Assembly: GCA_947176755.1 (NCBI GenBank)
Contig: CAMWRW010000018.1
Location: 1-32,430 of the forward strand
Direction of reading: 5' to 3'
DNA from: an uncultured Porphyromonadaceae bacterium
GTDB taxonomy: Bacteria; Bacteroidota; Bacteroidia; Bacteroidales; Muribaculaceae
Length of the DNA stretch: 32,430 nucleotides
The notes under the pieces were generated by a model. The model was given only the letters and a program-made list of their open reading frames with translations, was not told the DNA's origin and did not search any database. The position numbers were made by a program, and so were the translations under genes. This document shows positions 10,091 to 10,700 of this stretch, piece by piece. Numbering within the stretch: the stretch's first letter is position 1; every line of letters begins with the position of its first letter.

Positions 10091-10145
10091 GCAAAAAAAA
10101 CGGAAACGAGAATAATATGCCGCAGGAAACACCAACATTTCAATG

Positions 10146-10181
10146 TAAGGCTCCATCCACTAAAATTTCTTTATGCCCGGG
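10146..10181 (+). repeat. Left terminal inverted repeat
   Basis: 36 bases matching the reverse complement of 10643-10678 at 35 of 36 positions. The inner end is a CCCGGG palindrome. Confidence 0.9.
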
Positions 10182-10448
10182 TCGCAGATGTGCCTCGGAT
10201 ATCGCTTTGCAGATTCAGGAGCATAGCGGGCTATGTGATTGAATTCAATTGAAAATCGACGAGTTTCCTTTAAGATAAACAATGACGAGTCAAAAGCGAT
10301 AGACGAGGTGCAGCTGCGAGACCTTAGGAAACGAACTTTTTATACTGATAGAGGGGTAAATACTCTTACTGCTTAACTATCAAATTACGGGCTGGTGATG
10401 CTAACCGTTAATATTTTTAAGAGGTTGTGGTCTAAGAAGAAAAGAGAA

Positions 10449-10482
10449 TAAAAAAGGGTATGCAGTCCGGAATTGCACGCCC
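10449..10482 (-). terminator. Minus-strand terminator inside the inverted-repeat element
   Basis: A 9-bp stem (10456-10464 with 10474-10482, one mismatch, one G-T pair, 9-nt loop) is followed on the minus strand by six T. It would end a transcript coming from the right half of the element. No protein-coding frame is apparent there. Confidence 0.6.
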
Positions 10483-10642
10483 TATGTCATTATGACCGCA
10501 TTCCCAAAATAGAAGTTCCAAATTATAAAATTACCTTTTGTCCTGCGTCTTTTTGGGTCTTTTCTTCCTTCTTTTCAGTCACAGCCGAAAGGCTGCTCCT
10601 TCAAAGATGAAAGAAGAAAGAAAATACCCTAAAAATCCGCCG

Positions 10643-10678
10643 CCCGGGCATTAAGAAATTTTAGTGGATGGAGCCTTA
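10643..10678 (-). repeat. Right terminal inverted repeat
   Basis: Reverse complement of 10146-10181 with one mismatch. It ends 22 bp before the rpmH -33 box. Confidence 0.9.
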
Positions 10679-10700
10679 ATCAATATGAAATAAAGCAATA

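Follow-up and report, generated by a model that had tools for sequence, protein, structure and literature searches.

The non-coding unit that separates efp from rpmH in the DNA analysed here (the window, a stretch of 32,430 nucleotides from an uncultured Porphyromonadaceae bacterium) is almost certainly a MITE. Sequence comparison makes a narrower identification likely as well: a non-autonomous, internally deleted member of the IS5 family whose ends form strand-specific hairpin arms, a statement that does not extend to any guard role of those arms. The MITE itself is of a known kind; what appears to be new is a variant with strand-specific arms. The two arms are the unusual part of the unit, and they do not figure in the sequence-only reading, an earlier description of the same DNA made without database searches.

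The element occupies 10146..10678 (533 bp, no strand assigned). TNA triplets form its outermost bases: TAA on the left (10146..10148, + strand) and an unlike TTA on the right (10676..10678, + strand). The terminal inverted repeats, at 10146..10189 on the + strand (tip GGCTCCATCCAC, starting at 10149) and 10635..10678 on the − strand, are 44 nt long and 91% complementary (self match E 2e-10), as expected from the long repeats that the sequence-only reading described. That reading had set the bounds at 10145..10679 with 35/36 bases matched; these positions give 34/36, and since 35/36 is reached, counted by eye, from 10146/10678, the earlier bounds each lie one base too far out. A left hairpin arm lies at 10182..10319 (+ strand) and a right hairpin arm at 10548..10640 (− strand), both in the inward reading. 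The left arm carries an apex of the form GGAG-stem-TGATTGA at 10218..10242 (+ strand), 69 bases from the tip, and the right arm carries the apex GGAGCAGCCTTTCGGCTGTGACTGA at 10575..10599 (− strand), 76 bases from the tip. The intervening core (10320..10547, no strand assigned) is a non-coding remnant of the interior of an IS; parts of it match the non-coding stretches that flank the transposase remnant of copy L066, in genome G013. The unit contains no ORF of at least 80 aa, in line with the earlier judgement that nothing inside it was convincingly coding. A segment of about 48 bp (CAATTGAAAATCGACGAGTTTCC...GACGAGTCAA) lies in the 3' half of the left hairpin (10246..10294, + strand); it also occurs within or next to the hairpin arms of several other MITE copies (L306-L315), at more than one position, and is possibly a nested repeat or a putative binding site.

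The unit lies upstream of both efp and rpmH, whose transcription leads away from it. A match to rpmH was obtained in 101/111 genomes of the genus, and 30 loci were returned for measurement of the gap; efp adjoins rpmH in 24/30 of them and was not located in the other 6. The gap is 794 bp in the window and 187-359 bp in all measured relatives (23/23), too short to hold the unit, so that these relatives lack it; the window gap less the 533 bp of the element is 261 bp. At the junction no alignment was obtained with the nearest empty locus, that of G002 (one genome per species was compared). The promoter-like bases of rpmH next to the unit are also present in G002, consistent with the earlier claim that the insertion left this promoter intact. 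The location between the two promoters and the strong folding of the unit (z = −10 for the whole unit as ssDNA, against 100 shuffles) would suit a conserved regulatory RNA or a leader of efp or rpmH. The probability of such an RNA is close to nil given the 23/23 relatives in which the unit is missing, the unrelated sites of its fetched copies and an Rfam scan of the window stretch in which no match reached the gathering score. Rfam scans of 8 loci and of 15 loci also gave nothing fitting, and among the 15 the cut-off was reached by a tRNA only.

Matches to the unit were found in 26/61 genomes: 25/37 of the genus, its own included, and 1/24 outside it. The sequence-only reading had proposed a search for the unit in this genome and in related Bacteroidales genomes, and had named a fixed location and form in all relatives, with no other copies and no empty sites, as the mark against a MITE; that pattern was not observed. 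Homology among the fetched copies ends at the tips to within a few bases, and the sites are unrelated. The MITE form that had been proposed is thus borne out by copies that end at the tips, by the relatives without the unit and by IS copies with the same ends. The own genome holds a hairpin-armed IS relic (contig 9), a 318-bp MITE (contig 45), an 89-bp tip-to-tip fragment (contig 12) and single tips (contigs 5 and 40). Searches with the unit in phages and plasmids, and with the exact tip pattern in viral contigs, returned no match.

The flanks of these copies indicate a 3-bp target duplication, TNA, for the element family. Agreement between flanking triplets was seen in 25 of 51 paired copies, against a shuffle mean of 18.9 (p 0.026, uncorrected and drawn from 30 length/offset combinations), and no other duplication length or offset was convincing among the same pairs. 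After removal of 4 wrong pairings, TNA was found on both sides in 38 copies of all lengths, the N agreeing in 25 (T/A table p 0.14, not significant). The N agrees in 17 of the 21 standard-length MITEs or full-length IS (Fisher p 0.012) and in 8 of the other 17, odd-length copies, the division by length having been chosen post hoc, after inspection of the data. The odd-length copies, that of the window included, look like recombinants. The window triplets, TAA and TTA, are unequal, so this copy has no intact duplication; as duplications decay, this is compatible with the family, and the mismatch is taken as later recombination or mutation that does not exclude membership.

Outward from each tip of the window unit follow the TNA triplet, one unmatched base and TCAAT. 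The sequence-only reading had seen TCAAT as flanking the unit on both sides, which it does, and this suggested the MITE of an IS that duplicates 5 bp; TCAAT is not the target duplication, however, because the TNA triplet and the unlike base stand between it and the tip. A 5-bp repeat at this offset occurs in 1/51 paired copies, the window copy itself (shuffle mean 0.10), and the family duplicates TNA, which leaves a 5-bp-duplicating parent highly improbable.

The ends had also been described as those of no recognisable IS, a view that does not hold: the type of transposase and the TNA duplication identify an IS5-family end. Six loci (L052, L057, L058, L062, L065 and L066) carry transposase remnants between the same arms as the window unit. 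Three remnant pieces were scanned: one scores above the Pfam cut-off of DUF4096, one above that of DDE_Tnp_1, and the third matches DDE_Tnp_1 below the cut-off. Open frames of 263 aa are present in relatives of about 1.27 kb, in G116 and G114, between related TIRs of 49 and 38 bp, respectively. The G116 protein scores 152.8 against NCBIfam IS5 (cut-off 110) and also exceeds the cut-offs of Pfam PF01609 and PF13340. The check suggested earlier, for IS elements that share the ends, thus yields copies with decayed transposase, alongside open-frame relatives with related TIRs. Over the N-terminal 88 aa these open-frame relatives share 51-57% identity with a remnant that lies between window-type ends, and the exact parent element was therefore not found; no intact transposase partner was found in the own genome, where the matches carry stops. 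The unit shares its TIRs with IS5 elements, has a partner transposase of IS5 type, lacks coding capacity and has copies at non-homologous sites, which together place it among the IS5-family MITEs.

Members of the IS1031 group typically duplicate TNA. The IS1031-like group of the IS5 family and its MITEs resemble the present elements in the DUF4096 + DDE_Tnp_1 transposase, the match to NCBIfam IS5, the TNA duplication and the non-coding deletion derivative; the hairpin arms, and open-frame copies of 1.26-1.29 kb with 38-49 bp TIRs, set the present elements apart. For ISCaa8, a member of this group from a Bacteroidetes symbiont, the part of the source consulted gives 893 bp and an IR of 18 of 22 (PMC3196728). 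BrickBuilt and MITE464/PgRS of Porphyromonas gingivalis are, in the portions of PMC4596501 consulted, Bacteroidales MITEs with IS5-type TIRs; BrickBuilt is said there to have no BLASTn match outside its species, and long stem-loops are predicted from its 23-nt tandem repeats. The likeness of BrickBuilt to the present unit lies in these three traits (a Bacteroidales MITE, IS5-type TIRs and long stem-loops); it differs in the tandem repeats that build its stem-loops and in the stated lack of matches outside its species, and the same portions describe neither an apex motif nor a test of strand (PMC4596501).

When 25 transposase pieces were placed in a tree, all six with an apex at their locus fell within one 9-row group (87/85 support), whose remaining three rows are either decayed or truncated where a contig stops. 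Opposite this group, none of the 16 rows has an apex between its ends, and none of 7 loci taken outside the genus has one (0/7). Only the shape of this tree is relied on, its hand-assigned labels having put L275, which has an apex and a 36-bp TIR, among the short ones. Apex-free IS5 relatives mostly have clean TIRs of 16-23 bp; some are longer and imperfect, and one has a 33-bp TIR at 97%, so TIR length alone cannot separate the two groups.

Both ends of the element are, on the evidence of alignment and predicted folding, long covarying hairpins constrained on the inward-read strand. Folded as RNA, the left window arm reaches −54.6 kcal/mol inward (z −4.5) and −38.2 on the opposite strand (z −2.3), and the right window arm −46.3 kcal/mol inward (z −4.1) and −37.7 on the opposite strand (z −4.0); relative to shuffles the contrast between strands is clear in the left arm and hardly present in the right. 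Pairing holds in 95.7% of 2468 cells across 24 aligned MITEs, compared with 40-46% when slid. Changes on both sides of a pair occur in 55/103 consensus pairs against 18.2 shuffled, a count for which the structure was derived from the same alignment and the shuffles ignore relatedness; within the long helices they affect 15/24 pairs of the left arm and 16/27 of the right. When arms were cut by tip distance, the inward strand was the stabler in 13/13 clusters as RNA and in 12/13 as DNA. Some loci in the covariation and strand-energy tests had been fetched by the apex pattern, which can favour the inward strand; this applies to 3/13 cluster representatives of the strand-energy test. Mismatches in 37 hairpin representatives, read inward, are G.T in 95 cases against A.C in 12, and G.A in 233 against C.T in 5; the apex used for picking contributes one G.T and two G.A per representative. 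The hairpins in this mismatch analysis were chosen by apex and inner-stem pairing, their outer stems being unselected, so that conservation of the apex among them proves nothing. The inward bias in mismatches and the better inward folding together suggest that a single strand, either RNA or ssDNA, is seen by selection.

A strict apex (GGAG-stem-TGACTGA type) was found in 53/88 arms of 44 elements, in 50 of the 53 at 68-71 bases from the tip. Among the remaining 35/88 arms, a variant apex that still pairs occupies this position in 14, the stem is weaker or misplaced in 3, and the search used found no apex in 18. The near-fixed distance, the mirror placement of the arms and the preference of DNA parameters, too, for the inward strand would all suit arms that act as DNA, in which one strand (the non-transferred 5' strand at each end) is extruded or exposed as a hairpin during transposition and bound by the transposase or a host factor. 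This is a close rival to a role as RNA, though itself somewhat doubtful. The mean strand energy gap obtained with RNA parameters is roughly three times that obtained with DNA parameters (−14.9 and −4.8 kcal/mol), although the two scales differ, and two adjacent G.U pairs in the left arm are conserved in 20/24 aligned elements, a feature that suits RNA better than DNA. The existence of apex-free IS5 relatives likewise speaks against arms that act as DNA.

An arrangement that folds well from both sides would lend itself to an RNA guard, a role for the arms that is conceivable and still short of probable. An IS5-family DDE transposase duplicating TNA probably moved the MITE in trans into the site upstream of efp and rpmH. 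The window copy, of odd length and with unequal TNA, would have arisen by recombination between copies and would now be immobile. A polymerase arriving from either flank would transcribe first an arm in its well-folding sense, and the arms would fold as RNA on any transcript entering the element from either side. The hairpin in the nascent RNA could then pause or block the entering transcription, or shield the ends; blocked entry would keep outside promoters from acting on the transposase gene and would leave the ends free of transcription. A terminator scan of the unit returned none, and with efp and rpmH transcribed away from it, nothing indicates that the unit is transcribed here. A scan for sigma-70-like promoters gave four matches against 1.7 expected, one of them inside the unit (10249-10276). 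The promoter motif of Bacteroidales type (TTTG, 17-23 nt, TANNTTTG) is absent from the unit and from five other elements, and its −7 half alone is present in L091, L092 and L064.

IS10 and IS200 guard against outside transcription, in that a folded transcript entering the element limits it, and their guard structures sit in the transposase leader; a structured 5' tnpA RNA has reportedly been seen in IS200. The hairpin of the present family differs in standing at both ends and in being kept in transposase-free MITEs. A whole-element transcript predicted to fold is described for QMITE2, with general statements that MITE transcripts fold, and the consulted portion of that source describes neither a covariation nor a strand test (PMC10969869); here, in contrast, each arm folds alone and one strand is constrained. 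In the part of the literature searched, with most subscription papers outside its scope, no description was found of strand-specific hairpin arms or of a direction-blind RNA gate at transposon ends.

The apex is not confined to elements with the window-type tip. The same layout occurs with the tips GACCTC, GACCCC, GAGCTTGTTTAA (G345), GAAGCTGTTTAAA (G062) and GAGCGCGTTCC (own contig 9). The apex pattern, with palindromy not required, has matches in 71/111 genomes of the genus and in 47/295 across the order, the order-wide matches being mostly single and, by eye, non-palindromic. A palindromic apex recurs in G345, of the same family, and in G225, G318, G218, G387, G315 and G255, of other families, topping standalone hairpins. 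For one standalone from G225, about 134 bp long, 8 matched pieces occur in its own genome (itself counted), and 4/8 genomes searched have matches. At the few loci read, the standalone hairpins occur in both orientations with respect to nearby open frames, an argument against gene leaders. Exact matches to the extended apex in named genomes comprise 31 stretches; their labels are Muribaculaceae, Porphyromonadaceae, Bacteroidales or Bacteroides, and two come from a MAG labelled Lachnospiraceae. The standalone hairpin had no match in plasmids and phages, and two apex patterns had none in viral contigs. Separately, at locus L228 (G318, contig 40) the standalone hairpin is repeated in tandem every 127 bp, with three units in the stretch read.

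That hairpins with the same apex are dispersed, and tandemly repeated, in other families could mean that a REP-like hairpin moved by a Y1 (RAYT) transposase was captured by chance within IS5 ends. Such an origin is very unlikely: a Y1 match was absent in 5/12 hairpin-bearing genomes searched (some of the five being incomplete assemblies), the own genome and G006 among them; 15 Y1 loci yielded one loose pattern match, not palindromic by eye, and 14 none; and the IS forms are accounted for by the IS5 transposase and TNA. The link to Y1 was rejected on these searches.

The occurrence of the hairpin in IS5 elements of several end types and in standalone elements of other Bacteroidales families hints, as a rather speculative extension of the RNA reading, at a portable strand-specific RNA module that would become a direction-blind gate when placed at both ends of a transposon. 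Recognition by RNA polymerase or by a host RNA-binding factor might then explain why the tandem G.A apex is kept. The usual understanding of DDE transposons rests on ends made of duplex DNA; hairpins that covary, are strand-asymmetric and stand at a near-fixed tip distance, kept without a transposase, would imply that selection sees a single folded strand, and RNA devices in the ends of transposons and MITEs thereby become testable. The apex hairpin could serve to mark a group of gut Muribaculaceae repeats that, in the loci scanned, matched no Rfam family.

Four copies of 58 bp (L085, L086, L088 and L089), at four places in G009, consist of two tips around 24 asymmetric bases and are perhaps the smallest mobile form; their flanking triplets disagree. 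The existence of such tips-only copies suggests that the hairpins may not be needed for movement. In L046 (1004-1098) and L088 (1390-1420) the 15-bp tip stands in two or three tandem repeats at one end, as if copied by slippage. In L166 (3566-3904) one hairpin side is a nearly perfect palindrome where its sister MITEs, by eye, have mismatches, as if corrected by template switching.
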